Positions 19,197 through 40,144 of a DNA stretch of 64,000 nt are shown one piece after another. Position 1 is the stretch's first letter. Each line of letters opens with the position of its first letter. A program made the translations under genes and the position numbers. The stretch covers positions 62,001 through 126,000 of the forward strand of contig NZ_PVBR01000011.1 of assembly GCF_002980495.1 (NCBI RefSeq), read 5' to 3'. This stretch comes from Phyllobacterium phragmitis (GTDB taxonomy: Bacteria; Pseudomonadota; Alphaproteobacteria; Rhizobiales; Rhizobiaceae). The notes under the pieces were generated by a model. That model was given only the letters and a program-made list of their open reading frames with translations. It searched no databases and was not told the origin of the DNA.

Positions 19197-19211
19197 TGTT
19201 GCACCGCAACA
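19197..19211. promoter_or_regulatory. exo 15-bp inverted repeat, copy 1 (upstream of exoL)
   Basis: TGTTGCACCGCAACA: perfect 6-bp arms with a 3-nt centre, 47 bp upstream of the exoL start. This is the most symmetrical copy of the repeat shared by the exo promoters. Confidence 0.65.
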
Positions 19212-19275
19212 TCGCAATGTCGACCGTCTCTTGAAGAACTTTACCATGTAATGCTCGACGCTTGTAAAAGATTTA

Positions 19276-19290
19276 TGATGCACTGCAACA
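19276..19290. promoter_or_regulatory. exo 15-bp inverted repeat, copy 2 (upstream of exoL)
   Basis: TGATGCACTGCAACA: one mismatch to the arms. Sits directly after the exoK stop codon at 19291, 79 bp from copy 1 start to start (about 7.5 helical turns), so paired occupancy is possible. Confidence 0.6.
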
Positions 19291-20100
19291 TTACTTGAGC
19301 GTACAGGCAACGGATTCAGGAAACTGACAGGGATCACCCAGGGCGGTGAAGGCGACACGGGTAAATTGCGCCGAGACAGGCTCGGTCGGATCGCTGAACT
19401 TTCCCAGCCATGACGCCAGATTATCGCTGGCCCAAAGGCTCAGATAAATCTTCTGCGCATGCGACGGCAGCGCCGCCGGATCGGTAACGGTATGGACCAG
19501 CTTGCCGTTCACATAATAACGCAAACTGTCCTTTTCCCAGACGAAGGCATAATCGTTGAATGCCGCGTTGGCGTTGCCCGGCACGGGAACCAGTTTCTCA
19601 TTGCCGCCCTTGCCGTTGACATAGGAATTGAGTTGGACCGTCGAAGGGTCCTTGCCCAGGAACTCGAAATCGATCTCGTCCCAGGGCTGTTTGTGGGTCG
19701 GGCCGATATAGGTGAAGAAGCTTGAATTGAAGCCCGAGCCCGCCACGGCCTTGATGCGGGCTTCATAGGTGCCATAGCTGAAACGTGCATAGGTCTGGAT
19801 CTCACCGCAGACATGCTGACGGTCTTTGGCCTGTCTGCGCGCATAGCTTAGGCTGAGCGTCCCATCGGCGATCTTCACCTGGTCCGCCGCCCATGTGCAA
19901 TTCTGGTGATCGCCATTGTTCCAGCCGTCGGAAACGTACCAGCGGCGTTTGTCGAGGCTGGAGAAATCTTCGACAAAGGATTTTCCGGTCTTCTGCGCCT
20001 GGTCGGTCTCCTGTGCCTGCGAAGACGGAACAGATGCCATGCCCGGGACAACAAGAACCAGGATGGCCAAAATCGGACGGATCGAGCTTGAGGTCGTCAT
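19291..20100 (-). CDS. exoK: ExoK, secreted endo-beta-1,3-1,4-glycanase (GH16)
   Basis: 269 residues from the ATG at 20100 (AAGGAA upstream); an alternative ATG at 20133 overlaps the exoH stop. A signal peptide (IRPILAILVLVVPGMASV, cleavage after SSQA) directs export. The family 16 active site is QPWDEIDFEFLG, with the two catalytic glutamates in DEIDFE. ExoK trims nascent succinoglycan to lower-molecular-weight forms. Lies between exoH and exoL, as in Sinorhizobium. Confidence 0.9.
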   Translation of the reverse strand: MTTSSSIRPILAILVLVVPGMASVPSSQAQETDQAQKTGKSFVEDFSSLDKRRWYVSDGWNNGDHQNCTWAADQVKIADGTLSLSYARRQAKDRQHVCGEIQTYARFSYGTYEARIKAVAGSGFNSSFFTYIGPTHKQPWDEIDFEFLGKDPSTVQLNSYVNGKGGNEKLVPVPGNANAAFNDYAFVWEKDSLRYYVNGKLVHTVTDPAALPSHAQKIYLSLWASDNLASWLGKFSDPTEPVSAQFTRVAFTALGDPCQFPESVACTLK

Positions 20101-20132
20101 GGACGGTTCCTTTTTGACAGATGGAGAATACA

Positions 20133-21185
20133 TCAGCCCCGGCTTCCCACGAGCAAGGCATAGGTGCCGGGAAACGAGCGCCGCGCAATCTCATTCGACA
20201 TGAGCAGGAGCAGCCCTCCTATCGCCAGGGCGCCGGCATAGAACACCACATATTCATTGAGGTTGACCCGGTTCCACAGCATCCAGAGCAGCAGAAGAAC
20301 CGGATAATGAGCACAGAATATCCAGAAACTCAGTCCCTTCGTGCTCGCCAGACGCTGCCCGAACTCCGACTGGATGAGCAGCGCCGACAGGGCCCAGAAA
20401 CCCGGAATACCGATGAGGATGAAGAAATTCCGGGTGACGTTCAGCCAATAGGGATATTCGGGCCCATATTGATAAAGTGCGGCGGCAAGCCTGGCGCTGG
20501 CAATGAGAAAAGCCGCAAAGACCGGTGCAGCATAGGGATCCATCTTCTTGATATCGACCTTGTGTATGGCAAACGACATGCCAAGGGCGAAACTGAGCAG
20601 AATCGACTTGCGCACCACGATATGGATCGGAACAGGCACCACCGTCAGCGCCAGCAGCAATGTCAGCGTGGAAAGCGGATAGCGTTTCACCAGAAAGGCC
20701 AGCACCGGCGAAAGAAGAATGCAGACGAAGAGATCGCGCAGAAAATACAAAGGCAGATTGATCGGCTCGCCGTTCAGCGCGAAAATCAGATTGAGCAAGT
20801 CGGGAAACGGCACATGCGTCACATCAGGCAGATAGCCCTCTCCGATGCCGCGGCTTTGCACGAGGAAGACGAAAAGGAAGAAAGCGCCGTTCCAGATCAG
20901 CAAAGGCAGCAGGATGCTCTGCATCTTGCGCCCCAAAACCTTCCGGTAGTCGAATGTCTCAAGCCCGTTGCGCAACAGGAGATAGCCCGAAATCGCGCTG
21001 AGGCAGGGCACCCCTACCCTGAAAACGCTTTCGGCAAGAAAAACCCTCAGCCAGTCAACGATCCCGTTGTCGCCGTTGAACGGCTCGGTTTCCGGTCCGT
21101 ATGGTACATGCACCAGAACGATGCCGCATATGAGCGTTATCCGGAGCAAATTGATCCGGGCGGATACGTTCGCATCCATCGTCAT
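20133..21185 (-). CDS. exoH: ExoH-like membrane acyltransferase (succinyltransferase)
   Basis: 350 residues, about ten membrane helices, acyltransferase family 3. Start follows GAGGTGGG. The family opening is RINLLRITLICGIVLVHVP, and VGVPCLSAISGYLLL holds the conserved Ser-Gly. In Sinorhizobium ExoH adds succinyl groups to the repeating unit, needed for ExoK cleavage and symbiosis. First gene of the leftward exoHKLAMONP unit; a copy of the 15-bp repeat lies 86 bp upstream. Confidence 0.85.
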   Translation of the reverse strand: MTMDANVSARINLLRITLICGIVLVHVPYGPETEPFNGDNGIVDWLRVFLAESVFRVGVPCLSAISGYLLLRNGLETFDYRKVLGRKMQSILLPLLIWNGAFFLFVFLVQSRGIGEGYLPDVTHVPFPDLLNLIFALNGEPINLPLYFLRDLFVCILLSPVLAFLVKRYPLSTLTLLLALTVVPVPIHIVVRKSILLSFALGMSFAIHKVDIKKMDPYAAPVFAAFLIASARLAAALYQYGPEYPYWLNVTRNFFILIGIPGFWALSALLIQSEFGQRLASTKGLSFWIFCAHYPVLLLLWMLWNRVNLNEYVVFYAGALAIGGLLLLMSNEIARRSFPGTYALLVGSRG

Positions 21186-21270
21186 GGCGACCCACCTCTG
21201 TTTTGGCTGCGCCCCCCAAAACAGCTCGTCAGACGAATTCAGGATTAAGATCGATGTCCAGCACGTTACT

Positions 21271-21285
21271 TATTGCACTGCATCA
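21271..21285. promoter_or_regulatory. exo 15-bp inverted repeat, copy 3 (upstream of exoH)
   Basis: TATTGCACTGCATCA, 86 bp upstream of the exoH start; the TGC-N3-GCA core is intact and each arm differs by one base from the consensus. The rest of 21186-21475 holds no gene that I can recognise. Confidence 0.55.
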
Positions 21286-21475
21286 ATTTCATAGATGTTG
21301 AGCCCGAGTGTCAACCAGCAAAAAGTTGCGAGGTCGCAGTCGCGTTTTTCCTTTTAAAATCAACCATTCAAAGTCTTTAGCGGCTCGAAGGGGCGGATTC
21401 CACCCATCGGCCGGGCCCAATTCGCGCCATATTCGGCGGCAAATGCACGAGGAATAGCGACCTCATCCACCGAGG

Positions 21476-21853
21476 TCAGGCCGGCGCGTTGGGCACCGCG
21501 TCAGCTTGCCAAAGACCGTTTTTGTCAGCGAACTCTGTGACGGACTGATCCACCCCTTGGAGGAAAGCAAGTTGCTTTTCCAGAAAAGCGATGCGCTGCG
21601 TGAAACGCTCCAGCGCCAGCGTGAAATCCTCAATTCTCGCCGATACTTTTTCAGTTTCGCCTTCGTTTTCCATGTTTTCCAGTGAGAATGCGGCATTCAT
21701 CGAGATTTCGTCATAGCGACGCTGAAAGCCATCACGCTCACGCTCGATCTCCGCGCAAACCTCATTGAGTGTTTGTTTGATGTCGGCGAAACGCGAGACA
21801 TCGGTCTGAAGATCCCTGTCAGGACTTCTTGTCCGGAAGCGAAACAGCGCCAT
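21476..21853 (-). CDS. Small coiled-coil protein of unknown function in the exo cluster
   Basis: 125 residues; ATG preceded by GAGAGGTATGAGAA. Not recognised as a known family. No signal peptide or membrane segment. The N-terminus is basic (FRFRTRSPDR), and residues about 20-100 are charged and helical with heptad-like leucine/phenylalanine spacing (IKQTLNEVCAEIERERDGF, ARIEDFTLALERFTQRIAFL), so a coiled coil is likely. It sits between exoH and exoV, a place occupied by exoI/exoT/exoW in Sinorhizobium, and so may serve polysaccharide production. That link is by position only. Confidence 0.6.
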   Translation of the reverse strand: MALFRFRTRSPDRDLQTDVSRFADIKQTLNEVCAEIERERDGFQRRYDEISMNAAFSLENMENEGETEKVSARIEDFTLALERFTQRIAFLEKQLAFLQGVDQSVTEFADKNGLWQADAVPNAPA

Positions 21854-22042
21854 TTCTCATACCTCTCTCGGTAAGCTCTAAAACGCTCCAAGCCGGCACA
21901 GCCTGATACGGCGCGACATGCTGCACGCATTGTCTGCACGGCATTTTGCCGCCAGCTTGTTTGCCGTGCCCGCTCCTGTCAAGCCGAAGGGCGAAGCTTC
22001 CATTCCGGTCGTGCCGATCGCATTACCAATGGCATTTTAGCA

Positions 22043-22057
22043 GAGTGCATTGCACAA
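22043..22057. promoter_or_regulatory. exo 15-bp inverted repeat, copy 4 (upstream of exoV)
   Basis: GAGTGCATTGCACAA, 124 bp before the exoV start, in the 327-bp gap between the coiled-coil gene and exoV. Core TGC-N3-GCA conserved; outer arm bases diverge on the left. Nothing else was recognised in this gap. Confidence 0.5.
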
Positions 22058-22180
22058 TTTTTTTGGAAGTTCTCGATCGTTACCTGTATTATGACATGGA
22101 TTTCCGCCACAATCATTGTTGGTTCATATCAATTGCCAATCCAGTCCTTCTCCACATAAAATTCACGGCAGAGAGGTTTC

Positions 22181-23137
22181 ATGCGCCCATTTCACTGGGA
22201 ATCCAATCACGGAAACTTTGGAGATGACCTTAATCTCTGGCTCTGGGATTTCCTGCTTCCCGGATTGCGCGACGGCAATGACGAAATTCTCCTGGTTGGC
22301 GTCGGCACGGTTCTCAATTCGACGCTGCTGCCGAAAAACGTCCTGAAACTGGTGATCGGAAGCGGCTACGGCTACGGAACCGTACCTCAGATTTCGGACC
22401 GCAGCGAGTGGGATATCCATGCCGTGCGCGGCCCGAAAACCGCCGCCAAGCTGGGGCTCGATGCCAAGCTGGGGATCGCCGATCCGGCGGTCATGGTCAC
22501 CGAAATGCCGGAGTTTCAAAACCTGCCGAAAAAGAACAAGGCAATTTTCATTCCGCATTGGGAATCGGCGATCGGCGGCATATGGGACAGCGTGTGCAAG
22601 ACCGTCGGCCTCACCTATGTCGATCCCTGCGGCGAAGCCAAATCGGTCATCAGGGAAATCGCCCAGTCCGAACTGGTCATTGCCGAATCCATGCACGCCG
22701 CCATCCTGGCGGACGCCTTCCGCGTCCCATGGATCGCGGTGAGCACCTCCGGCAACATCAACAGCTTCAAATGGAATGATTGGGCCGAATCCGTCGGGAC
22801 GATCTACAAGCCGCACCAGGTGCCGGTTTCCACCCGCGCGGAAGCTATTTTCAAGGGCGAGACGTTCTGGGGCATCAGTTACGAGAACCGGAGCCATCCC
22901 GTGACAAACATTTTCGAGACGCGCTATGCGCCGGATGGAACCGTCCTGACCGCCGGCCAGAAGCCGCTGGATTTTTCCATCAAGAACATTGCCAAGCAGC
23001 TTCTGGCCACGCCATCCATTCTGGCGCTGTGGCAGGCCAGCAAGGCCGAGCCGCATCTCAGCCCCGATGGCAGGGTAGATCAATGCAAAGAACGCTTCTC
23101 GGAAGCGCTCGAAGGCGTGCGGCGGCAATATTTTTAA
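22181..23137 (+). CDS. exoV: ExoV-like polysaccharide pyruvyl transferase
   Basis: 318 residues; ATG preceded by GAGAGG. Family signs are HWESNHGNFGDDLNLWLWD at the N-terminus, LVGVGTVLNSTLLP, VRGPKTAAKLG, and IAESMHAAILADAFRVPWI. ExoV adds a 4,6-linked pyruvate ketal to the terminal glucose of succinoglycan, using phosphoenolpyruvate. It is transcribed alone to the right and is convergent with exoU, with a hairpin between the stops. Confidence 0.87.
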   Translation: MRPFHWESNHGNFGDDLNLWLWDFLLPGLRDGNDEILLVGVGTVLNSTLLPKNVLKLVIGSGYGYGTVPQISDRSEWDIHAVRGPKTAAKLGLDAKLGIADPAVMVTEMPEFQNLPKKNKAIFIPHWESAIGGIWDSVCKTVGLTYVDPCGEAKSVIREIAQSELVIAESMHAAILADAFRVPWIAVSTSGNINSFKWNDWAESVGTIYKPHQVPVSTRAEAIFKGETFWGISYENRSHPVTNIFETRYAPDGTVLTAGQKPLDFSIKNIAKQLLATPSILALWQASKAEPHLSPDGRVDQCKERFSEALEGVRRQYF

Positions 23138-23177
23138 ATAGCGTCCAAAAGCAACCCCTGGAACAGAACCACCGAAT

Positions 23178-23196
23178 GGCGGCAGAAATTGCCGCC
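23178..23196. terminator. Hairpin between convergent exoV and exoU
   Basis: GGCGGCA-gaaat-TGCCGCC, a 7-bp stem with a 5-nt loop, lying against the exoU stop and 40 bp after the exoV stop. Suits a bidirectional terminator, though T-runs are short. Confidence 0.45.
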
Positions 23197-24245
23197 TACT
23201 CGGCTTCGGCACGCCCCGTGAAAAGATAGCGCAGGGCGACGGGCGTCCGGTTTGTATCGGTTTTTTTTCCATCCCGTTTGAGAAAGCCGTCCAGCTTGTC
23301 GGTGAACACGCCGTGCGCGATCGGCGCAACAGCGGACGGATTCTTCAGGCAATAGGCGAGAGCAGCACCAAACCCCTGTTGCGATTTAGTGTCCAGAAAC
23401 TGGCGGTGGTGATATTTTCCGCGAATGTGATGTTCGTGCTCGCGCACCGCTTTCCGCCCCTCGCCGGAGAGCGCACCACTCTCCAGAAGCGCCTTGTCAG
23501 CATCGGCAAGTTGCTTGAGATCATCAGTCCGGTGCCGTCCGCTCAGCGAATCCGCCCGCACCACCGCGCCATAACCGCAATTGTTGATGACCTGGAAACG
23601 CGCACCAACCGCCAACGCCCGCGTATAGAGATCATAATCCTCGCCGAGCCTGAGCTTTTCGTTGTAGCGCAAACCATGACGATCGAGGAAATCCCGGCGG
23701 ATGACCGGCTTCAGGAAGCCCAGTTCGCCGCGCTGCTTGTTGCGCCTGGAAATGTTGTGCTCGACGAATGTTGGCAGATCGAGAAATCTCGGGTCGGCAG
23801 AGAAGCGCTCTATGGCCGATGCATTGAAACCGCCCAGCCATTGTTGATCGACGAAGACGATATTATCGGCGGCCAGGTCCCAATCCTTATTTGCCAGGAG
23901 GCGGGAAAAGCGGCCGGGAATGAAAAAATCATCCGCATCCAGAATGCTGATCAGGGTTGCGGACGAAGCGGAAATGGCGTGATTGCGCGCACTGGCCGGC
24001 CCCTTATTGGTATCGAAGCGGATAATGCGCAACCGTCCGCTTCCGTCATCCGCCGCTCGCGCCGCGTCGGACGTTCCGTCCGTTGAACCATCGTCGACGA
24101 CGACGACTTCCGTCACATGGCTCTCGCCCAGTGCTGACGATATGGCAGCGCCGATGGTCCCCGCGGCATTCTTCGCGGCAATGATAACGCAAACGCTGAC
24201 ATCCGATCCGTTCGCGATCGTCTTCCGCTTCGACTGTGCCGCCAT
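23196..24245 (-). CDS. exoU: ExoU-like family 2 glycosyltransferase
   Basis: 349 residues from the ATG at 24245 (GAGGG upstream); the frame opens at 24275. Motifs: VSVCVIIAAKNAAGTIG, VVVDDGSTDGTSD, SILDADDFFIPG and LRLGEDYDLYTRAL, the same layout as ExoO. In Sinorhizobium ExoU adds the sixth sugar, a beta-1,6 glucose. Monocistronic leftward unit; a hairpin overlaps its stop codon. Separation of ExoU from ExoO or ExoW relies on context. Confidence 0.75.
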   Translation of the reverse strand: MAAQSKRKTIANGSDVSVCVIIAAKNAAGTIGAAISSALGESHVTEVVVVDDGSTDGTSDAARAADDGSGRLRIIRFDTNKGPASARNHAISASSATLISILDADDFFIPGRFSRLLANKDWDLAADNIVFVDQQWLGGFNASAIERFSADPRFLDLPTFVEHNISRRNKQRGELGFLKPVIRRDFLDRHGLRYNEKLRLGEDYDLYTRALAVGARFQVINNCGYGAVVRADSLSGRHRTDDLKQLADADKALLESGALSGEGRKAVREHEHHIRGKYHHRQFLDTKSQQGFGAALAYCLKNPSAVAPIAHGVFTDKLDGFLKRDGKKTDTNRTPVALRYLFTGRAEAE

Positions 24246-24347
24246 AGAGGCCCTCAATCCAGGTTGAACTGCCAAACCCGCTGTGCGCGTTGGCCTTCCC
24301 TATTTAAACGCCGTTTCCGCACACTATCCATGACCCGGCGCAGAAAA

Positions 24348-24372
24348 GCTCCCGGCGGGTCGCCCGCGGGAG
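24348..24372 (-). terminator. Intrinsic terminator after exoX
   Basis: Stem CTCCCGGCGGG / CCCGCGGGAG (one bulge) with a 3-nt loop, followed on the minus strand by CTTTTCTG. It is about 55 bp past the exoX stop and would isolate exoX from exoU. Confidence 0.6.
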
Positions 24373-24426
24373 AATACAATTGTTTCGATCCCCCGCAAGA
24401 GGCCGAAAATCCGATAATAAATAATT

Positions 24427-24696
24427 TCAGGGAGTTTTGGTGGCAGACGTGTTGAATGGCTGCGAAGGCTCTTGACTTGCCTCATCGCCAGACGACGATA
24501 CCTGCTTCCCGGCGTTTCGCGACTTCTCGCGCATCACGAGAAAAAGAATCGCACCGAAATAGCCGATCTGAATGACCACTGCACAAATCAACGTCTGAAT
24601 AACGGTCATCCAGAAAGAATGCGTCATCATGTAGGTCGTGACCGCGAAGGCAATCAGGACACCAAGCATCCCTACCAGAAACTTTGGAAAACTCAT
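24427..24696 (-). CDS. exoX: ExoX/SyrA-type exopolysaccharide production repressor
   Basis: 89 residues. Two hydrophobic segments (FLVGMLGVLIAFAVTTYMM and VIQTLICAVVIQIGYFGAIL) are followed by a short basic turn and a hydrophilic tail. This matches the small membrane 'exopolysaccharide production repressor' family (ExoX, SyrA), in which ExoX lowers succinoglycan output by acting on ExoY after translation. It is divergent from exoY across a 793-bp AT-rich gap, so the ratio of the two may be set by shared regulators. A perfect palindrome lies 72 bp upstream. Confidence 0.75.
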   Translation of the reverse strand: MSFPKFLVGMLGVLIAFAVTTYMMTHSFWMTVIQTLICAVVIQIGYFGAILFLVMREKSRNAGKQVSSSGDEASQEPSQPFNTSATKTP

Positions 24697-24767
24697 TTCG
24701 CCATGCCCCCATTCTCTACTCGAATCGGGGCCTTACTGAATGCCGCATCCTCTGCCTCTCCCCACAC

Positions 24768-24782
24768 GCATGTAAAACATGC
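24768..24782. promoter_or_regulatory. Palindrome upstream of exoX
   Basis: GCATGT-aaa-ACATGC, perfect 6-bp arms, 72 bp upstream of the exoX start. It has the same 6-3-6 geometry as the exo repeat but a different sequence, so it may bind another regulator. Confidence 0.45.
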
Positions 24783-25115
24783 ATATGGAAACCCGACTTC
24801 ATTATCATTGGCCCCAACCACATCATCAGCAGAAGGCTTTGAAATTGTATTAAACCAGCCTACCTTATGTAACATATAGCTTTAATCCGGGCTTTGCATC
24901 ACGGTTCCACGAAAAAAAATAAACTTGAACAGCTATCAAGAAAACGTGCCGGCAGGACCGGCTACTCAACCTTGACCTACTTCCCTTCGGCACATGATGC
25001 ATAATCAAACGTTAAAGATAACGCAGAAGTTGCTCGACAAGATTCTTGCCAGAAGGAAAAGACCGTATTTAAAATATTAACGGCGGTCCTTTTATAAAGA
25101 TAATTCCTAAAAATA

Positions 25116-25130
25116 CACTGCATTGCAACA
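25116..25130. promoter_or_regulatory. exo 15-bp inverted repeat, copy 5 (exoX-exoY gap)
   Basis: CACTGCATTGCAACA; right arm perfect, left arm partial. Mid-way in the exoX-exoY gap, about 360 bp upstream of the exoY start. Confidence 0.5.
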
Positions 25131-25421
25131 TAAATACAAAAATCACGACCTGACGAAATACACAGTATAACTTAATATATATTGGTTATCGTCCTGATGT
25201 AATAACAAGATTCTACAGCTAAAATTTGATACACGTAATATTATCCTACATTACAATATTTTATCACGGCGTCACATCGCTATTTCTAGGGTGCAAGATA
25301 TGGAAAAATAACGAGGAATCGTTGTTGCATCCCTTCTATATCTGGAACGATTCATGAAAATACCCAATTATACCACCACCAAATTAGGTACAGGTGTGTG
25401 AGCGTCCTGCGAACAACAGCC

Positions 25422-25436
25422 TGTTGCATTGCACAA
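25422..25436. promoter_or_regulatory. exo 15-bp inverted repeat, copy 6 (upstream of exoY)
   Basis: TGTTGCATTGCACAA; left arm perfect. It lies 54 bp upstream of the exoY start, the same distance class as copy 1 at exoL. Confidence 0.6.
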
Positions 25437-25489
25437 ATTTCGTGTTATCGTTCGTGCAACCATTCGTATCCGTTCCATGGAGCAGCATA

Positions 25490-26170
25490 ATGAAGCCTGC
25501 AACGAAGTTGGCCAGCTTCCCTTTTCTTCGACAGTCGAAAAAAACGGAAAAACTCCCTGTTGGCGGAGTCCTAAAGCGGTCATTCGATGTGATTGGCGCT
25601 GCCGCCGGTCTGTTTCTGCTCAGCCCGCTTTTTATCCTGGTGGCGATTCTGGTTAAATTATCCGACGGTGGATCGGCCTTTTACGGCCATCGCCGAATCG
25701 GCCGCGACGGAAATCCGTTCTATTGCCTGAAATTCCGCACGATGGTCCAAGATGGCGATGCCGTGCTGACCGCGCATTTCGCTTCCAATCCCGAGGCGCG
25801 CGCGGAATGGCTCGCTTCACGTAAACTCCAGAAGGATCCGCGGGTCACCAATGTCGGCGCCGTCCTTCGCAAACTCAGTCTCGACGAATTGCCCCAGCTG
25901 GTGAATGTGTTGCGCGGCGAAATGAGCCTCGTCGGACCGCGTCCCGTCGTCAAGGACGAGATCGATCTCTACGGTTCCGCCGCGATCTACTATTTCAAGT
26001 CCCGTCCGGGGCTGACCGGCGTCTGGCAGATCAGCGGCCGCAACGACGTTTCCTATGATGACCGCATCGCTTTCGACCGGCATTACGTGGAAAACTGGTC
26101 CTTTCAAAAGGACATTGTGATCATTCTCAAGACCATTCCCGCCGTGTGTGCGTCACGCGGATCATATTGA
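25490..26170 (+). CDS. exoY: ExoY, undecaprenyl-phosphate galactose phosphotransferase
   Basis: 226 residues from the ATG at 25490, with GGAG 7 nt upstream; the longer frame from 25394 would cover the repeat at 25422. ExoY primes succinoglycan assembly by moving galactose-1-phosphate to undecaprenyl phosphate. It has one hydrophobic hairpin (GAAAGLFLLSPLFILVAIL) and the cytoplasmic sugar-transferase core: FYCLKFRTMVQDGD, RLSLDELPQL-like KLSLDELPQLVNVL, GEMSLVGPRPVV and RPGLTGVWQISGRN. Heads the rightward exoY-exoF-exoQ set. Confidence 0.93.
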   Translation: MKPATKLASFPFLRQSKKTEKLPVGGVLKRSFDVIGAAAGLFLLSPLFILVAILVKLSDGGSAFYGHRRIGRDGNPFYCLKFRTMVQDGDAVLTAHFASNPEARAEWLASRKLQKDPRVTNVGAVLRKLSLDELPQLVNVLRGEMSLVGPRPVVKDEIDLYGSAAIYYFKSRPGLTGVWQISGRNDVSYDDRIAFDRHYVENWSFQKDIVIILKTIPAVCASRGSY

Positions 26171-26412
26171 TGGCGGCTGCGTCTTCACGAAAGATAGGCA
26201 GCGACTTTCTTTGTGATCTCCAAAAGCACCGAATGGGAATAGACAAAGCCTAAGTAGGCTGTCTTGAACGTCGAATAGCAGCTATAAGCATAATGGAATG
26301 GCAGACACATGGCGGGGGCACGCTATGGGCACCGGCGGCGATGCTCTGATCAGGAAGCAGCCGCGGCTGAGGTTGCAGCGTTGGGGGCCGGTCAGTCTTA
26401 ACAGGAGACCAT

Positions 26413-29106: not shown

Positions 29107-29121
29107 TGTTGCACCGCAATA
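29107..29121. promoter_or_regulatory. exo 15-bp inverted repeat, copy 7 (upstream of exoZ)
   Basis: TGTTGCACCGCAATA, 80 bp before the exoZ start; differs from the perfect exoL copy by a single base in the right arm. Confidence 0.62.
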
Positions 29122-29200: not shown

Positions 29201-30178
29201 ATGACTCAGCTACGATCGATACAGGTTTTGCGCGCCATCGCGGCACTTGCGGTCGTGTTTTTTCACCTTTCTCCCTCCTCGTGGACGCTCGGGGCCGCGG
29301 GCGTCGATCTTTTCTTCGTTATCTCCGGTTTCATTATGGGTACGGTCGGGCTCAACGACAGCCCCGTCCGTTTCATGTTCAAGCGCATCATCCGCATCGT
29401 GCCGCTCTATTGGGCCATCACCTTCGCCATGTGCATAGCCTCGCTGATGCCGGGGCTTTTCGCCACCTTCACCTTCGACCTGCCACGGATCATCACGTCG
29501 CTCTTCTTCATTCCGTTCGAGGATCCGCAAGGCAAGGTCTGGCCTCTGATCGTCGTGGGGTGGACGCTGAACTACGAGATGTTCTTCTATCTTCTCTTTG
29601 CCCTCGGGCTCTGGTTGCGCCGCCCGATCATCGCGCCCATGCTGATCATAGCCGGGCTGGCGGCTGCCGGATGGCTGTTCCAGCCTGAGCAAACCATCCC
29701 GCATTTCTACACCGATGCGCTGCTGCTCGAATTCGTCCTCGGCCTCCTGCTCTCGCGCGCGGTCTTCTTCAAGAACGCGGCGCTCGGATCGGTGCTGGCG
29801 GCCGCGGGCTTCGTAGGCCTCTTGTCATGGGGACTTGGCGGCGACACGCCCGATTGGCGCATCATCTATTGGGGCCTGCCCGCTGCGGCGATCGTCGCCG
29901 GCTTCGTGGCGATCGAGCGTGCAGGCATGTTTCCCGGCCAGGCGCTACGCCCTCTCGAAAGGCTGGGCGATGCCTCCTATTCGCTTTATCTGACCCACGG
30001 CATCGTGCTCGGCATCATCGGCAAGTTCGTCAGGCATGAAAGCGGGTTCGCAATTCCCACCGCCCTTGCCGCCTGCATCGTGGTGGCGATGCTGTCCTAT
30101 TATCTTTTCGAGCGCCCGGTCGGGCAGATTTTGCGCGGTCTCATCGCCCGCCCGCAACGGCCTGAGGTGGCGACCTGA
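29201..30178 (+). CDS. exoZ: ExoZ-like acetyltransferase (acyltransferase family 3)
   Basis: 325 residues; ATG preceded by GGGCGGG. It opens with RSIQVLRAIAALAVVFFHLS and has the paired GAAGVDLFFVISGFIMG motif, followed by about ten helices and KRIIRIVPLYWAITF. In Sinorhizobium ExoZ acetylates succinoglycan. The stop codon lies in the second unit of a 12-bp tandem duplication (CCTGAGGTGGCG at 30161 and 30174), so the last residues may have been altered recently. Confidence 0.85.
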   Translation: MTQLRSIQVLRAIAALAVVFFHLSPSSWTLGAAGVDLFFVISGFIMGTVGLNDSPVRFMFKRIIRIVPLYWAITFAMCIASLMPGLFATFTFDLPRIITSLFFIPFEDPQGKVWPLIVVGWTLNYEMFFYLLFALGLWLRRPIIAPMLIIAGLAAAGWLFQPEQTIPHFYTDALLLEFVLGLLLSRAVFFKNAALGSVLAAAGFVGLLSWGLGGDTPDWRIIYWGLPAAAIVAGFVAIERAGMFPGQALRPLERLGDASYSLYLTHGIVLGIIGKFVRHESGFAIPTALAACIVVAMLSYYLFERPVGQILRGLIARPQRPEVAT

Positions 30179-31268: not shown

Positions 31269-31855
31269 CTGCACCTCTTGATCACGCCCCTGTGGAACGT
31301 CACGCGTCCGAACGGACTCGCAAAAGATCCTCTCACTTTGAGATATTATACCACTATCCTTGAACGGATTCCGGCTTGAGAAACGAGCAATAGCGATTGC
31401 AGAATTCTTCCCGATGACAACGCCACGATAAGCGAGAAATCACTATGCTCATGCATACCTATCATGACTATCCCCATATCCGATTGATGAACTTCCAAGC
31501 GTGAAAGCCCCCCCTTTAGTGATAGAACCACCATCAAACGCATTACAGCGCCGTGCGTCTTTTTGGAGACTACACAAGGACGCTGCAAGTTATTGAATCG
31601 GCGCGTCGCGCTTTCCGAAAACAAATTCCAGTTTTCGGACCGATACGCTACGTCTCACCGGATAATCCACAGATGCGGTTGATAAACCGGCGTCCAAAGG
31701 AGTACCTTGGGATAGAGCGGGTGGCGAAGGCAAAATCGGGAATCTCGCAGAGGACCGGTAGCCTACCAAATAGCCACGTTTTGTCCATCATACCCAATAC
31801 CGCCCGGTATTACACTGAAGCTCCCTTCTGAAATTCACGACAAAGGATTGTGACC
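31269..31855. other. Intergenic region exoW-MFS gene
   Basis: 587 bp between divergent genes with no convincing gene; short frames here cross the dispersed repeat at 31544-31648. No exo 15-bp repeat was seen. Otherwise nothing recognised. Confidence 0.4.
31544..31648. repeat. Dispersed double-hairpin repeat, copy A
   Basis: About 105 bp. First stem CAGCG ... CGCTG encloses a small hairpin; the second stem contains CCGAAAAC / GTTTTCGG. Aligns over its length with copies B (38690) and C (56939). Resembles the intergenic palindromic elements common in Brucella and other Rhizobiales. Confidence 0.65.
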
Positions 31856-33094
31856 ATGCTGGCGTCGGACCTGCGCCCGGAAATGCGCTCGGAGATGCGC
31901 TGGCTTTCCAGCGGCTTTCTTCTGACGCTCTGCTCCGGTTTCGGCCAGACCTATTTCATCGCTCTCTTCGCAGGTTACCTGAAAACCGATCTCGCCATCA
32001 GTGACGGTCAGTTCGGCAGCCTCTATACGATCGGCACACTGGCCAGCGCGGCGCTGCTGATGTGGGCGGGAAAGTTCGCCGACCAATTGTCGATCCGCTG
32101 GCTCGGAGTCGGCGTCATGGCGGGACTGGCGCTGACATCGCTGGCCATGGCATCGGTGGCTTCCGTCTGGATACTGGTCTTTGTGCTGTTTGGTCTCCGT
32201 TTCTTCGGCCAGGGCATGCTGACCCATGTGGCGATGACCGCCATGGGCCGCTGGTTCAATCGCAAGCGGGGGCGAGCCGTCTCCATCGCCGCGCTCGGCT
32301 TTCCCGCCGGTGAGGCGGTGCTGCCGATGATCGCGGTCGCAAGCATCGGCCTCATCGGCTGGCGTTCCACATGGGTCGCGGCCGCCATCGTTCTCTTCGC
32401 CTTGCCTATACCGATCCTGATCTGGCTTCTGAAACATGAACGTCGCCCGACCGCCGGCCTCGCTGTCGCCGAGACAGCTAATCAGGGCATCGCCCGCCGC
32501 GAATGGACGCGTAGCGAGGTTCTGAAAAGTCCGCTCTTCTATGCACTCATGCCCGGAGTGCTCACGCCCTCCTTCATCGTTACCGGCATCTTCTTCAATC
32601 AGGTCACCATCGTGGCGCTCAAGGGCTGGGAGCTTTCCTGGTTTGCCGCAAGCTTTCCTTTTTCCGCCGGTGTCAGCGTTCTGTCGGCGCTCACGGCCGG
32701 CTGGATGGTCGACCGCTTCGGCGCCCGCCATCTGCTGCCGACGTTCCTTGTTCCGCTCGGCCTCGCAACTTTGATCCTGACTTATGCGGCGAGCCCTTAT
32801 GTCCTGCCGGTGTTCATGGCGTTGGTCGGGCTTTCACTCGGCAGCGCCTCGACCATTCAAGGCGCGCTTTGGGCCGAACTCTACGGCACCGAGCATCTCG
32901 GCGCGATCCGGGCGCTCGTCATGGCCGGAGTGGTCTTCGCCTCCGCGCTGTCACCCGGGCTGATCGGTGTCCTCATGGATGCCGGCGTGCCGCTGGAAAC
33001 GCTGCTTCTGGCAATGGCCGCCTATTGCTTCATCGCCGCGCTGTGGATGGGTGCGCTCATGCCCCGGCTCCATCGTCTGGCTATGTCCTCATGA
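31856..33094 (+). CDS. Major facilitator superfamily transporter
   Basis: 412 residues from the ATG at 31856 with AAAGGA 8 nt upstream (a GTG two codons earlier is possible). Twelve membrane segments; the cytoplasmic loop MGRWFNRKRGRAVSIAALGF after helix 4 is typical of the oxalate/formate-antiporter-like or NNP-type MFS groups. Substrate unknown. It is an insertion relative to known exo clusters, lying between exoW and exoT, and may have nothing to do with polysaccharide. Confidence 0.78.
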   Translation: MLASDLRPEMRSEMRWLSSGFLLTLCSGFGQTYFIALFAGYLKTDLAISDGQFGSLYTIGTLASAALLMWAGKFADQLSIRWLGVGVMAGLALTSLAMASVASVWILVFVLFGLRFFGQGMLTHVAMTAMGRWFNRKRGRAVSIAALGFPAGEAVLPMIAVASIGLIGWRSTWVAAAIVLFALPIPILIWLLKHERRPTAGLAVAETANQGIARREWTRSEVLKSPLFYALMPGVLTPSFIVTGIFFNQVTIVALKGWELSWFAASFPFSAGVSVLSALTAGWMVDRFGARHLLPTFLVPLGLATLILTYAASPYVLPVFMALVGLSLGSASTIQGALWAELYGTEHLGAIRALVMAGVVFASALSPGLIGVLMDAGVPLETLLLAMAAYCFIAALWMGALMPRLHRLAMSS

Positions 33095-33138
33095 GGACAA
33101 GCCAGACACGAAACGCTGTTCACTCAATCCCTGCATTT

Positions 33139-33153
33139 TGCTGCAGCGCACAA
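33139..33153. promoter_or_regulatory. exo 15-bp inverted repeat, copy 8 (upstream of exoT)
   Basis: TGCTGCAGCGCACAA, 172 bp before the exoT start in the 230-bp gap after the MFS gene. Core TGC-N3-GCA retained; arms differ at a few positions. Confidence 0.45.
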
Positions 33154-33324
33154 ATTAGCGCTTTACGGCTTCGTAGCCGGTCCATAAGATTTGCCCGCCT
33201 GTCCCCTCTAGCCAAACAAAATATGCACCCAATCTTAGCCTAGGACCCTTCCCACGCGCTGCGCGCAACATCCTCGCGGACAGTTTGGACTGATCGGCGT
33301 CCGTAGCAACATCTGGAGCATTGT

Positions 33325-34770: not shown

Positions 34771-34795
34771 AATCCGAACAGAGCGGAGGACCGGC

Positions 34796-35716
34796 TCACG
34801 TCGCGTAGATTCCGTGCACATAATCCTTGCGCACCGTATCGACTTCGACGCCCGGCATCGGCAGCAGGCGGAGCATCTCGGAGCGCACGACGTCCGGGTC
34901 GACAGTCAGCCTCTGCTGCGCCAAATCGAAATTGTGCTTCGCATCGGCGCGCGACCATTGCAGGGATTCGAGCGGTGCGTTCATCAGGCGATATCTGAAG
35001 CCCTCATAGGCGTCGCAGGGTTCTTCGACGACGGGCAAGGCACCGCAGATCACCGCTTCGAAGAAACGATAGGTCCAGGCGATGCCGTTGTTCTTGAAAT
35101 CGCCGCTCGGGCAAAGCACGAATTTCGAGTTGAGCAGCAGATCGTAATATCCGGTATTCCAGGATTTACGCGGGAAGACGCGGCCCTGGTCGGACATGTA
35201 GATCTTGACGTTTTCGGTACCCACATAATCGGCAATCGAAATACCGGCCTTGCGGGCGACCTTGCGCGCGATAGTGCCTAGATATGTCGGCTTCTTATCG
35301 GGAACGGAAAGCTGTTCCAGGCCGGACAGATGAAGCCATTCATTGATGGCCGTGCGGCGGCTATCGGTGAGGAGACCGGCGAAGGAGACATCCACCCCGC
35401 GATGTTCCGGCCATCGCTCTTGGCAATGGCGAAAGATCGCGGCGGGCATGATCAGCGCCCGCTCGATCGACCCGATCCGGCTCACCGGCGTCATATGATC
35501 GATGTAAAGACCGGAAACCTTGCGCGCGCCGGACATGCCGACTTTGTAATCGAGCCCGAAGATCTTCTTCAGCAGGACGAGCTTCTTCTCCTCGCCCGGT
35601 TCGATGCAAATCCGGAAACCCGCTTCGCTGATCGCATGAACCAATCTCAGCGTTTGCAGCAGATCAAACGGGAGATCGATTGTCACATCAATTACGTTCT
35701 CATCCCTTCTGCTCAT
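34796..35716 (-). CDS. Exostosin-like (GT47-type) glycosyltransferase, putative
   Basis: 306 residues; ATG follows GGGGAA. The C-terminal half has LLLNSKFVLCPSGDFKNNG and YRFFEAVICGALPVVEEP, the layout of exostosin/GT47 domains where a nucleotide-sugar is bound. No signal peptide or membrane helix, so it would be cytoplasmic. Position beside the nucleotide-sugar genes suggests that it attaches the sugar they make, possibly as a decoration of the exo polymer or of lipopolysaccharide. The donor cannot be told from sequence. Confidence 0.6.
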   Translation of the reverse strand: MSRRDENVIDVTIDLPFDLLQTLRLVHAISEAGFRICIEPGEEKKLVLLKKIFGLDYKVGMSGARKVSGLYIDHMTPVSRIGSIERALIMPAAIFRHCQERWPEHRGVDVSFAGLLTDSRRTAINEWLHLSGLEQLSVPDKKPTYLGTIARKVARKAGISIADYVGTENVKIYMSDQGRVFPRKSWNTGYYDLLLNSKFVLCPSGDFKNNGIAWTYRFFEAVICGALPVVEEPCDAYEGFRYRLMNAPLESLQWSRADAKHNFDLAQQRLTVDPDVVRSEMLRLLPMPGVEVDTVRKDYVHGIYAT

Positions 35717-35792
35717 CTGAATTCCCCAATCTGGCTAAGAGTTAATTTGCCTTATCCACTTCAGTCCCATTTCAAGCTCACTTCAGGCGTTT

Positions 35793-36569
35793 TCACGCCC
35801 AGAGCTTCCACGGCGCCTTGCCGCCTGCCCATTCCTTCTCAAGCACCATCTTGTCGCGCAGCGAATCCATGCTTTGCCAATAGCCCCGGTGCCAGTACGC
35901 ACCGAGCTTGCCACCTTCTATCACCCGCTCCATCGGTTCCTCCTCCCATACGGTCTGATCGCCGTCGATGAGATCGAAGACCTCCGGTTCGCAGACGAAG
36001 AAACCGCCATTGATCAGGCCGCCGTCGCCTGCCGCTTTTTCGCGGAATGCCCGGACCTTTGCCGCATCCTCCGATAACCCAAGCGCGCCGTAGCGGCCCG
36101 GTTGAGTGACCGCCGTCAGCGTGATCCAGTTGCCGCCCTCCTCATGCACCTTGATCGCTTCCGGAATATTCGCGTCTGACACACCGTCGCCATAGGTCAG
36201 CAGGAAGCGCTTGTCGCCAATGACGTCCCGTGCACGCTTCAGGCGCCCTCCTGTCATCGTATCGAGGCCCGTATCGAGAACCGTAATCTTCCAGTTCTCC
36301 GAGCATCTGCGTTTCCAAATGATCTCACCGGTGGCGAGATCGGCGGTGAAATCGCTGTTCATCATGAAATAATTCAGGAAATAGGATTTGATGAAATCGG
36401 CCTTGTATCCGGCAAGGATGATGAAATCGGTGAACCCGTAATGGGAATAGATTTTCATGATGTGCCAGATAATAGGGCGATCGCCTATTTCCACCATCGG
36501 CTTTGGCCGTGAAGTGGTTTCCTCCGTAAGCCTGCTGCCATAGCCGCCCGCGAAAATGACCACTTTCAT
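35793..36569 (-). CDS. rfbF: RfbF, glucose-1-phosphate cytidylyltransferase
   Basis: 258 residues. Nucleotidyltransferase opening VVIFAGGYGSRLTEETTSRPKPMVEIG, then PIIWHIMKIYSHYGFTDFII and LTYGDGVSD (metal Asp), and GFFVCEPEVFDLIDGD. Makes CDP-glucose, the entry to CDP-deoxysugars or CDP-linked branched sugars. Start overlaps the stop of the SAF oxidoreductase gene (ATGA), so they are coupled. A CDP-glucose 4,6-dehydratase of obvious RfbG type was not found nearby. Confidence 0.9.
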   Translation of the reverse strand: MKVVIFAGGYGSRLTEETTSRPKPMVEIGDRPIIWHIMKIYSHYGFTDFIILAGYKADFIKSYFLNYFMMNSDFTADLATGEIIWKRRCSENWKITVLDTGLDTMTGGRLKRARDVIGDKRFLLTYGDGVSDANIPEAIKVHEEGGNWITLTAVTQPGRYGALGLSEDAAKVRAFREKAAGDGGLINGGFFVCEPEVFDLIDGDQTVWEEEPMERVIEGGKLGAYWHRGYWQSMDSLRDKMVLEKEWAGGKAPWKLWA

Positions 36570-37960
36570 AAAACACCCGTCCTTTCGTTTTCCTGATTGG
36601 AATTCCGTTTCCGCAAATTCGCACCGGCATCGGAGCCGAGCGCGGAAACCGTTTTTTCATGATGATCGATGGGAAAGAGAGCATCCTGCTGGCGCCGCAA
36701 GGCGTGTGCAGTACTGCCGGACGGCGTCTCGACATCATCATAGGTAAGCGCCTGATCCATCGGAACCTCGCGCTTCAGCCGACAGCCCTCGGCAAGCCCC
36801 ATCGGCAGCAGGTTTTCCCCTCGCGAAATGTCGTAATTCTCGGCGACGCCATAGGTCATGTACCCGCCGATGCCGTCGATGGTTTCGCCTTGCCGCAGCG
36901 GTCTTTTCGCAGCCGCCACGACATCGACCGATGGCGCATTGGTGTTGCCGATCACCACGTCGCGGCAGAGCGCCACGCGGGCGATCGATATGCCGAATTC
37001 GAGCGTCGTCAGATGCCAGGCGGTGTAGAAGCTGTAAAGCGGTCCCTTGCCGAGCTTGCCCAGATTGAGGAAGAACGCCTGGTTTTCATCGCGCGCTTCG
37101 GCAAGAACATAGATGCCTGGGCTGGGCCGGGTTCCAACGACATAATCGACGATGCCCCCAAGCGCCCGCAACGCGTCGATATCATAGAAATCGACGAGAT
37201 CGTCGACATGCCCTTCATATTCCCGGCCGATCATGCCGCGCTGCGAAACCTTCAGCCCCACGGCATTGGCGACGATCGCCTGTTCGGCCGTCATCTTGGT
37301 CCCATCGGCGAAGCTCGCGACCATGCTGGGCGTCTGGTTCCATTGTCTGGCGAACGCTTCCTGCGTCGTCGGGTTGCGGGTGCGGTCCTGCAACCCCTTG
37401 ATGTTGCCGCAAACAAGAGGTCTGAGCCCCATCGCCTCGACATGACGCACGAGGTTCATCGTCACGCCGGGCTGGTCGCCATCGGCGCCGGAAAAGATCA
37501 CGCCTGCCGCCTCGGCCTTCACGCGCAGCAATTGCCCGACCGTCGCATCGAGTTCGACATTGAGGGAGACGATATCCTTGCCGTTTTCGATGCATTCCAT
37601 GGTGATGCGGGCGCCATATTCCACATGGCCCGTCGTTTCCAGCACTATATCGATCATCGCCGAGCGCGCGATCAGCGAAGGATCGCTCGTCACCACCCTT
37701 TTTCCGGCCCTCAGCGCATGGGCCATGGCCGACGCCGTCGTCACCTCGACGATTTCACCGCGCCCGACGCCGGCATCGACGAATGCGTTGATCGCGCGTT
37801 CGACATTGCGGTTGCAGATGGCCGCCACATGCAGGACCTTCATGGTGCGCTCGACATTGATGAGCATGCCGCGGCCCATGAAGCCGATGCCGTACATGCC
37901 GACGACGACGGGACGTCCCGCCCGCATCCGGGCCTTGATGGCATTATCGACAATAATCAT
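36566..37960 (-). CDS. NAD(P)-dependent oxidoreductase with SAF domain (homoserine-dehydrogenase-like)
   Basis: 464 residues from the ATG at 37960, which overlaps the rfbC stop; the longer frame to 38284 is shadow coding over rfbC. N-terminal Rossmann fold VVVGMYGIGFMGRGMLIN, mid region FSGADGDQPGVTMNLV, and a C-terminal SAF-type part (VPMDQALTYDDVE) as in sialic-acid synthase antifreeze-like domains. The family is seen beside rfbF/rfbC in polysaccharide loci and is thought to act on a sugar precursor; exact reaction unknown. Confidence 0.8.
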   Translation of the reverse strand: MIIVDNAIKARMRAGRPVVVGMYGIGFMGRGMLINVERTMKVLHVAAICNRNVERAINAFVDAGVGRGEIVEVTTASAMAHALRAGKRVVTSDPSLIARSAMIDIVLETTGHVEYGARITMECIENGKDIVSLNVELDATVGQLLRVKAEAAGVIFSGADGDQPGVTMNLVRHVEAMGLRPLVCGNIKGLQDRTRNPTTQEAFARQWNQTPSMVASFADGTKMTAEQAIVANAVGLKVSQRGMIGREYEGHVDDLVDFYDIDALRALGGIVDYVVGTRPSPGIYVLAEARDENQAFFLNLGKLGKGPLYSFYTAWHLTTLEFGISIARVALCRDVVIGNTNAPSVDVVAAAKRPLRQGETIDGIGGYMTYGVAENYDISRGENLLPMGLAEGCRLKREVPMDQALTYDDVETPSGSTAHALRRQQDALFPIDHHEKTVSALGSDAGANLRKRNSNQENERTGVL

Positions 37961-38574
37961 GCTTGCGCTCCGTGAACTGGGGAGCCGCCGTTCGGAGGAG
38001 CCGGAGCGACGGCAAGCGAACGAAACCCCTCGACACCGTGATATTCCAGGTCGAACAGCCGCCACGATGTATCCTTGGCTGATATTTCGACAGGCTGGCA
38101 TGGCCATTCGATCGCGAAGAAAGGATCGTCCCACCGCAGGCCCCGCTCCTGCTCCGGAGCGTAGAACGCACTTACCAGATAGAAGGCCTCGGCATCGTCG
38201 GTCAGCGTGATGAAGCCATGCGCAAAGCCGCGCGGCACATACATCATCGTCCGGTTTTCGGCGCTCAACGTCGCGCCGAACCATTTGGAGAATGTCGGAG
38301 AATGGGGACGAAGATCAACGATGCAATCCCAAAGCGCGCCCTGGATGCAGCGCACCACCTTGGCCTCAGCCGAAGGCATCAGCTGATAATGCATGCCGCG
38401 CAGCGTTCCGGCCTTGGCGCTCAGTGAAGTGTTGATCTGGACAAAATCGGTTTCCAGCCCTGCGGAAGCAAATTCGTTCTCGCAGAAGAGCCGTGCAAAG
38501 AAACCGCGTTCATCGCCTCTCTTGGTGAGATCGACGAGCCAGGCGTCCTTCAATCCCGTTTCACGGAATATCAT
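37957..38574 (-). CDS. RfbC/RmlC-like dTDP-4-dehydrorhamnose 3,5-epimerase family protein
   Basis: 205 residues, cupin fold. Visible: KRGDERGFFARLFCENEF, TLRGMHYQL (catalytic His region), VRCIQGALWDCIVDLR and PRGFAHGFITL. As it sits with a cytidylyltransferase rather than rmlA/B/D, the substrate is probably a CDP-4-keto sugar, not dTDP-rhamnose precursor. First gene of a unit with the SAF protein and rfbF (4-bp overlaps). The 335 bp upstream hold dispersed repeat B. Confidence 0.82.
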   Translation of the reverse strand: MIFRETGLKDAWLVDLTKRGDERGFFARLFCENEFASAGLETDFVQINTSLSAKAGTLRGMHYQLMPSAEAKVVRCIQGALWDCIVDLRPHSPTFSKWFGATLSAENRTMMYVPRGFAHGFITLTDDAEAFYLVSAFYAPEQERGLRWDDPFFAIEWPCQPVEISAKDTSWRLFDLEYHGVEGFRSLAVAPAPPNGGSPVHGAQA

Positions 38575-38689
38575 TCAGGCAGTCCCCACATGTCCTCTCC
38601 CGGTATATTTTTCCCTCTGCCACCCTTTCTCGTATCGGCCCGCTGTAAAATTGATCTTGGGGGCGCGATAGTCGAAGACTGGCGTCTTC

Positions 38690-38788
38690 TTACAGCGCCA
38701 TGCATCCATCAGGACGCGCAAAGGGCGCTGCAACTTATTGTCCGCGCATCGTGCCTTCCGAAAACCGATCCAGGCTTCGAGCCGATGC
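38690..38788. repeat. Dispersed double-hairpin repeat, copy B
   Basis: About 99 bp between the epimerase stop (38910) and rfbC start (38574). Begins TACAGCGCC, includes CATCC/GGACG small hairpin and the long stem GCGCATCG ... CGATGCGC. Clearly alignable with copies A and C. No gene was recognised in 38575-38909. Confidence 0.65.
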
Positions 38789-38909
38789 GCAAGATTTCGG
38801 CAGGCCGTGAAAATCCCCTCACGGCCAATACCGATCTCTCTCGCCGCCACACAAAATGGCGGGGTATGTCAATTTCCGCGCGCCCAATCGCGGAATTGCA
38901 GAAAATGAA

Positions 38910-40019
38910 TTACGCGGCGTTCGCTGCCTGTGCCGCGTCAAAAACCGGCATACGTACGGGCCGGCTCGTTCCCAGATCGGCCCATCGCAAATCGGGCCGC
39001 AACCGGCCCTGTTCCAGTGCTGCCCCCAGCACATTGAACCGGATGAAACTGGATGCACGATAGTCCGGATCAGCGAACCCCATCGCCGTGAGACCATCGC
39101 GTATGTCCTCGATCGCCTCTTTCAGGAAGATCCGAGGCTGATGATCCGGCGCGAGCGATCTATAAAGCCCGAAATTCACGCGGTAGGAGCGCTTGTCCGG
39201 CAGTGCATTCCTGTTGATATCGACCTCGGTCCCGGGAATGGCTGCGCGCACGGCTTCCGCCAGTTCCGCTACCTGATAGTTCCATTCCTCGCATCCGGCA
39301 TTCACGGCGAGAAACTGATCATCCGCCATGGCGGGACGCGAAATCGCCCATTCTATGGCGCGCGCCATGTCCTTCACGTGGATAAGCGGGCGCCAGGGTG
39401 TCCCGTCGCTCAGAACAGAAACACGGCCCGTCGCCAGCGCGGAAGCAACGAAATCATTGAGCACGAGGTCAAGGCGTATGCGGCCTGAGAAACCGCACGC
39501 CGTGGCAAAGCGCAATGCGGTCATCGTCATATCGCTTTCGGCGCAGATTTCTCTCAAGCCGATCTCCGCCCCAACCTTGGACCGGGCATAAGCCGTCAGC
39601 GGATTGAGAGCATCGTTCTCCGAGCGCTCTCCACCCTCGGCATAGCCATACATCGAGCAACTCGAGGCGAAGACGAAACGCCTCACCCCGGCCCCGGCGG
39701 CTAGCTTCGCCACACGGATCGTCGCCTTCTGGTTGATCTCTTCCGTTACCACCCCAAAGCGCAGCCCCATCGGATCGTTGGAGACCGCGGCAAGATGCAC
39801 GACCGCGTCAACCCCCTCGAACAGAGCAGAATCAAGGTCGCGTACATCGCGGAATATCTGGATGTCGACTTCGTGTTCGGGAAGACTTTTTTGCGTAATG
39901 CAATGAGCAAATAGCCCGCTATCCACGCCGATGATCGTCGAATATGGAATAGTTTTCCGTATATGCGAGATAAGGGCCGGGCCAACGTACCCCATATTCC
40001 CTGTAATCATAATATTCAT
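38910..40019 (-). CDS. NAD-dependent epimerase/dehydratase (extended SDR)
   Basis: 369 residues from the ATG at 40019, with GGGAG upstream. Rossmann motif ITGNMGYVGPAL, HLAAVSNDPMG, FASSCSMYG (catalytic Ser) and YARSKVGAE (YxxxK). Extended SDRs of this type act on nucleotide sugars; with RfbF and the RfbC-like epimerase it may provide the dehydratase or epimerase step on a CDP-sugar. A copy of the exo 15-bp repeat lies 110 bp upstream, tying it to the exo genes. Confidence 0.82.
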   Translation of the reverse strand: MNIMITGNMGYVGPALISHIRKTIPYSTIIGVDSGLFAHCITQKSLPEHEVDIQIFRDVRDLDSALFEGVDAVVHLAAVSNDPMGLRFGVVTEEINQKATIRVAKLAAGAGVRRFVFASSCSMYGYAEGGERSENDALNPLTAYARSKVGAEIGLREICAESDMTMTALRFATACGFSGRIRLDLVLNDFVASALATGRVSVLSDGTPWRPLIHVKDMARAIEWAISRPAMADDQFLAVNAGCEEWNYQVAELAEAVRAAIPGTEVDINRNALPDKRSYRVNFGLYRSLAPDHQPRIFLKEAIEDIRDGLTAMGFADPDYRASSFIRFNVLGAALEQGRLRPDLRWADLGTSRPVRMPVFDAAQAANAA

Positions 40020-40129
40020 CTTCGCACGCTCCCATACTCGCAATATATACTAGCGTATGCAGGAAACTAACCTATGTAACTCAAAGATTAGCAGTAGTTA
40101 ATCTTGATTTTTAGCAATGTGTGCTATTT

Positions 40130-40144
40130 TGTTGCAGTGCAATG
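40130..40144. promoter_or_regulatory. exo 15-bp inverted repeat, copy 9 (upstream of epimerase)
   Basis: TGTTGCAGTGCAATG, with TTGCA-G-TGCAA symmetry, in the AT-rich gap before the SDR gene. It extends the repeat family to the nucleotide-sugar block, about 21 kb from the first copy. Confidence 0.58.

Follow-up and report, generated by a model that had tools for sequence, protein, structure and literature searches.

Predicted PhaR operators in front of exopolysaccharide units and a nucleotide-sugar gene set of Phyllobacterium phragmitis

The closest described counterparts of the element examined here are the operators of PhaR (AniA), a repressor that senses polyhydroxybutyrate (PHB), in Sinorhizobium meliloti and Bradyrhizobium diazoefficiens; both systems are cited throughout from part of the published text (PMC12542648 and PMC6201568, respectively). 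In S. meliloti, PhaR binds and represses the exoH, exoL and exoY promoters, and its consensus, WNWD2NYGCRNYGCRNH2WNW, is given together with a table of sites and binding results. Repression of the exo genes is strongest in a phbC mutant that makes no PHB, and removal of phaR in that background restores exopolysaccharide (EPS). The listed S. meliloti targets also include phaP1, with two sites 18 bp apart, ppdK, manX and ppa (PMC12542648). Other targets in that species are phaZ, gltA and zwf. The B. diazoefficiens site, TGCRNYGCASMA, comes from footprinting and from aligning the promoters that PhaR binds; in that species PhaR binds in front of an operon that includes exoZ as well as at the phaP promoters, and EPS rises when phaR is lost (PMC6201568). 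Here we analyse a stretch of 64,000 nucleotides from Phyllobacterium phragmitis (contig NZ_PVBR01000011.1, positions 62,001 to 126,000; "the window"), in which a palindrome recurs in front of exo genes, and ask how this locus compares with the two known systems.

Judged by its sequence, the palindrome in front of the exo genes is almost certainly the known PhaR operator. Its TGC-N3-GCA core, which we took to be PhaR-like, was the starting point for this identification. A sequence-only reading of the same DNA had described the element as an inverted repeat, TGTTGCA-N-YGCAACA, not recognised as a known ExoR/ChvI, MucR or HutC site; it matches the published PhaR/AniA sites of B. diazoefficiens and S. 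meliloti. We scored every window position with a symmetric 21-bp weight matrix built from 17 PhaR-bound S. meliloti sites (PMC12542648). Nine of the ten sites listed in the earlier reading occupy ranks 1 to 9, with scores between 25.7 and 13.3 bits, and the next-best position, 3406, reaches 10.8 bits. The same nine sites top the window when the three exo sites are withheld from the matrix and the 14 non-exo sites are kept. In order of rank, and with no strand assigned to any of them, the predicted PhaR operators are:

19276-19290, distal copy before exoL: 25.7 bits, rank 1; exact 21-bp consensus
33139-33153, before exoT: 24.6 bits, rank 2; exact 21-bp consensus
25116-25130, distal copy before exoY: 19.6 bits, rank 3
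21271-21285, before exoH: 19.2 bits, rank 4; exact 21-bp consensus
40130-40144, before a short-chain dehydrogenase/reductase (SDR) gene at the head of a nucleotide-sugar gene set: 19.0 bits, rank 5
25422-25436, proximal copy before exoY: 17.7 bits, rank 6
29107-29121, before exoZ: 17.7 bits, rank 7
19197-19211, proximal copy before exoL: 14.5 bits, rank 8
22043-22057, between exoV and a small, divergently oriented gene (21476-21853): 13.3 bits, rank 9

These matches exceed what composition would produce. Nine window sites reach at least 12 bits, against a mean of 1.35 and a maximum of 3 in 20 order-2 Markov sequences. All nine top matches lie in exo intergenic DNA, whereas 200 column-shuffled palindromic matrices placed on average 1.18, and at most 6, of their nine top matches there. 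With up to 3 mismatches allowed, the 15-bp consensus of the earlier reading has 24 strand matches here; in 100 shuffles the average was 8.57 and the largest value 18. Two of the listed sites, 22043 and 27729, lie beyond this mismatch limit. The latter, proposed before exoQ, scores 6.3 bits and ranks 28th, and we do not retain it; the exoF-exoQ gap likewise held no site of at least 12 bits in the six related loci scanned. Eight of the nine retained sites are intergenic, as claimed, and the ninth, 19197, runs into the opening codons of the longest ExoL open reading frame (ORF). The earlier reading noticed no copies in the hut, malonate and fad blocks, and indeed no position of the window outside 19197-40144 reaches 11 bits.

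The rest of the genome holds the predicted regulator and its expected context. The earlier reading noted no regulator gene in the window, and the phaR gene indeed sits on another contig. A profile search of the 5.6-Mb assembly (139 contigs) found one PhaR N-terminal domain (PF07879), in a protein that scores 148.6 bits against TIGR01848 (cut-off 109.45). A thiolase gene lies next to phaR in divergent orientation, with a 16.7-bit site in between; the thiolase is over the cut-off of TIGR01930 and matches the PhaA equivalog model under its cut-off. A type I PHB synthase, PhaC, is present (TIGR01838, 728.8 bits, cut-off 622.65; the search covered this synthase family), as is one gene of the Phasin_2 family, the phasin family searched. 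A pair of sites 18 bp apart, scoring 25.6 and 25.2 bits, lies upstream of this phasin gene; both are in the top three of the sites scored in the own-genome loci outside the window.

Matrix scoring outside the window covered own-genome loci L001-L060, which were reached by two pattern searches and hold part of the loci from the strict-consensus search described below; sites that fit neither pattern are missed by this design. Within these loci, sites precede ppdK (pyruvate phosphate dikinase; 19.3 bits), an EIIA-man (manX-like) gene (17.6 bits) and ppa (inorganic pyrophosphatase; 15.4 bits). Further sites lie before genes for ClpP, an M24 peptidase, a DUF1127/DUF2157 pair, a second pyruvyltransferase, a UDP-sugar dehydrogenase and a pyrroloquinoline quinone (PQQ)-dehydrogenase. 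The genome contains 46 matches to the 15-bp pattern TDNTGCRNYGCANHA, whereas the reversed pattern, used as the control, finds 5. The window accounts for 6 of these 46 matches, and 25 of the 40 outside it reach 13 bits. Two of the own-genome loci stand out as observations in their own right. The site before the ClpP gene (L047, 1498-1518) scores 25.3 bits, lies about 270 bp upstream and is the third of the top three outside the window. Between the DUF1127 and DUF2157 genes (L043, 1501-1551) two PhaR-type sites of 22.4 and 23.1 bits are 30 bp apart, a spacing close to the 28 bp at the S. meliloti phaP2 promoter.

Set beside the described systems, the locus shows both likenesses and differences. 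With the S. meliloti regulon it has in common the palindrome and the targets exoL, exoH, exoY, ppdK, manX and ppa, as well as the tandem sites of the phaP1 type. In S. meliloti AK76, however, exo-region sites of at least 13 bits lie only before exoL, exoH and exoY, with none before exoT, exoV or exoZ, whereas P. phragmitis has extra sites at exoV, exoT, exoZ and the nucleotide-sugar set and doublets at exoL and exoY. A stretch from S. fredii CCBAU 45436 carries sites before exoL and exoY and, at the position of exoH, before exoK; exoZ lacks a site there, and exoH, exoT and exoV were not found in this stretch by similarity. With B. diazoefficiens the locus shares the TGCRNYGCASMA core and a predicted operator in front of exoZ. 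The cited part of PMC6201568 describes one bound EPS operon, which contains exoZ, rather than an exo cluster marked unit by unit.

The sites recur in related genomes, a point that the earlier reading had left for checking. We examined exo cluster stretches from five genomes of the same genus at a threshold of 13 bits; four of these are also among the nine named loci of the ExoL search (L061-L064 and G003, G002, G005 and G001 denote the same four assemblies, each counted once). All five carry two sites at the exoK-exoL junction, a site in front of the exoH/exoK unit (exoH itself was not found in G002), a proximal exoY site and a site beside the small gene, which falls in the exoV gap wherever exoV is present (exoV was not found in the G003 stretch). 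The exoT site is present in all four relatives with exoT in the stretch and the SDR site in all three with the SDR gene, while the distal exoY site reaches the threshold in three of five and the exoZ site in one of the four with exoZ (13.0 bits). Across six intergenic regions, exoZ excluded, pairwise identity is 86% in site columns and 62% elsewhere when gap cells are left out; outside-site identity is 43% when gaps count as differences. Ranked among all 15-column stretches of its own region, with gaps again counted as differences, the site is the most conserved at the proximal exoY (1st of 475), exoT (1st of 218) and proximal exoL positions, 3rd of 312 at exoV and 5th of 192 at the SDR gene. 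Farther afield, Mesorhizobium zhangyense, M. xinjiangense, Shinella and a genome of the same family (G016) have sites before exoY and, in addition, before exoL or the exoH/exoK unit.

At the scale of the class, the pattern goes with the regulator. Among 142 Alphaproteobacteria genomes, 82 with PhaR and 60 without, the ratio of 15-bp pattern to control matches is 6.16 with PhaR and 2.64 without, and the excess per Mb differs between the two groups (Mann-Whitney p 2.8e-9); both comparisons are correlative and uncorrected for ancestry. The difference persists within two ranges of genome size (1.4-2.7 Mb, 22 versus 42 genomes, p 6.6e-5; 2.0-3.2 Mb, 22 versus 17, p 8.7e-5).

Because the motif matches PhaR-bound sites, the genome encodes PhaR, PhaC and a phasin with tandem sites, the targets overlap those of S. 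meliloti and most sites are conserved, we consider it highly probable that the nine palindromes are PhaR operators through which PhaR represses exo units when PHB is low and from which granules release it. Binding, repression and the response to PHB in P. phragmitis are inferred from S. meliloti by analogy. At low PHB, free PhaR, presumably a dimer, would bind the operators and repress the exo transcription units; under carbon excess, PHB granules would form and keep PhaR off the DNA. With PhaR held on granules, synthesis, decoration and flipping of a succinoglycan-type polymer and the supply of its precursors would rise along with expression of the phasin gene.

A variant of this model, in which the sites are PhaR operators at several of which (exoZ, exoV, distal exoY) PhaR mainly activates or has little effect, is the alternative that survives best, and we regard it as improbable. 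It draws on S. meliloti, where the motif occurs at seven PhaR-activated genes and where the wgeA promoter is weakly bound and escapes PhaR regulation (PMC12542648), as well as on the patchy retention of the exoZ and distal exoY sites among the relatives. However, repression was the outcome at each of the three S. meliloti exo promoters that were tested (PMC12542648), and the site beside exoV is kept in every one of the five relatives. Far less probable is a different dimeric regulator, specific to polysaccharide genes, that reads the same or a very similar palindrome. Of the earlier proposal of one dimeric regulator with a polysaccharide regulon, the palindromic, dimer-type operator at many exo-region units stands and the exclusive attachment to polysaccharide genes does not. 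Although the protein is deduced here from the motif alone, the same palindrome lies before the genome's only Phasin_2 gene, ppdK, the manX-like gene and ppa, among others, and in S. meliloti it is PhaR that binds the orthologous exoH, exoL and exoY promoters (PMC12542648). That the palindromes are accidents of AT-rich intergenic DNA is very unlikely: the arms of the matrix are AT-rich and genomes without PhaR show some pattern excess, but nine sites stand against a Markov mean of 1.35, none of the 200 shuffled matrices reaches nine of nine, and most sites are conserved relative to their flanks.

Several observations weigh against repression by PhaR at these operators, or at least against reading every match as one. 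The strict 21-bp S. meliloti consensus, with its AT-rich arms, is exact at three of the nine sites (19276, 21271 and 33139). As a genome search tool it gave 36 sites, against 14 for the control, and it was set aside in favour of the matrix and the 15-bp pattern. Outside the window, 15 of the 40 pattern sites score below 13 bits and several own-genome matches lie inside long ORFs, so that a share of them is due to chance. The 2.6-fold excess of the pattern over its control in genomes that lack PhaR indicates that the excess is partly compositional and that the backward control underestimates chance. Three of the sites are not clearly more conserved than their surroundings (distal exoY, 148th of 475; exoH, 36th of 278; distal exoL, 21st of 94). 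Finally, the Devosia (L068) and Chthonobacter (L069) loci have no site before exoL, the former holding a single match, inside exoP, and the latter none. No PhaR-type site of at least 13 bits precedes an exoY paralogue on a Phyllobacterium zundukense plasmid (L130, 20001-20660); this locus, taken up as an exo cluster, proved to be an isolated paralogue and says little about the cluster.

The link between PHB and EPS through PhaR at exoH, exoL and exoY is already published (PMC12542648). To this the present analysis adds predicted operators at exoV, exoT and the nucleotide-sugar operon and, with variable occurrence, at exoZ; they enlarge a known kind of regulon. PMC12542648 has no word beginning exoT, exoV or exoZ, and the open-licence papers listed, among them PMC5596199, by its title on S. 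meliloti PHB mutants, showed nothing on PhaR sites at exoV, exoT, exoZ or the SDR set, a search that does not by itself show their absence from print. We think it fairly likely that PhaR operators spread, within the Phyllobacterium lineage, to individual succinoglycan-type units (pyruvylation, flipping and sometimes acetylation) and to the neighbouring nucleotide-sugar set, making the whole pathway one PHB-gated switch. Gain of an operator may follow the break-up of operons: the exoZ site is found in the two genomes with an exoQ-exoZ gap of 131-160 bp and in none of the three with a gap of 24-66 bp. The finding thus extends the published connection between carbon storage and exopolysaccharide, with no new regulator, and suggests that this connection reaches beyond Sinorhizobium and Bradyrhizobium and has widened to more exo units, which bears on the engineering of PHB or EPS yield. 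It also makes a testable prediction: like S. meliloti, Phyllobacterium-like bacteria should adjust their EPS output to PHB stores by way of PhaR.

The operators sit in what is largely one contiguous exo cluster, and not in the dispersed locus of the earlier description; by the gene calls made in this analysis, about 84% of 11565-41187 is coding. The genes next to the operators are:

17978-19204, minus strand: exoL, glycosyltransferase; longest ORF, with GTG at 19204; Pfam PF13579, 30.6 bits (cut-off 29.7)
19291-20133, minus strand: exoK, endo-1,3-1,4-beta-glycanase; NCBIfam NF052392, over the cut-off
20133-21185, minus strand: exoH, acyltransferase; Pfam PF01757; named from domain and gene order
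22181-23137, plus strand: exoV, polysaccharide pyruvyltransferase; Pfam PF04230; named from domain and cluster position
25490-26170, plus strand: exoY, sugar transferase; Pfam PF02397 on the longer ORF 25394-26170
29201-30178, plus strand: exoZ, acyltransferase; Pfam PF01757
33325-34770, plus strand: exoT, flippase-like; Pfam PF13440
34796-40043, minus strand: nucleotide-sugar gene set; SDR epimerase, dTDP-4-dehydrorhamnose 3,5-epimerase-like (dTDP-sugar isomerase-like), DRL-domain oxidoreductase, glucose-1-phosphate cytidylyltransferase and a weakly GT47-like gene

Two starts bear on where the sites fall. ExoL has nine named relatives at 42-83%; in seven of them the alignment begins between residues 10 and 21, and in the other two at residue 1. 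The longest ORF has a methionine at residue 19, and the true exoL start may lie near 19150, so that site 19197 may be strictly intergenic. The start of exoY was taken as 25490. Promoter-element matching near the sites gave weak pairs at most, such as a TTGACA-N17-TGAAAT pair adjoining the exoH site at 21271, and was not relied on.

With exoV on the plus strand at 22181-23137, the site at 22043 falls in the divergent gap between exoV and the small gene; a minus-strand ORF at 22163-23329, considered as exoV, has no family match and is a shadow of the plus-strand gene that carries PF04230. The small gene itself is a 125-residue ORF, 65-75% conserved in the five same-genus relatives and without a Pfam or NCBIfam match, and it has the divergent gap and the PhaR-type site in common with exoV. 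The genes at 34796-40043 presumably form an operon, judging from strand and order. The cytidylyltransferase is over its NCBIfam cut-off and the GT47 match under its Pfam cut-off; the set may encode a CDP-sugar pathway, and the PhaR-type site ahead of it is conserved. A major facilitator superfamily (MFS) transporter gene (31850-33094) lies between GT30234 and exoT. Since GT30234 and exoT are about 140-330 bp apart in four relatives, the MFS gene looks inserted in this lineage, with the exoT operator retained.

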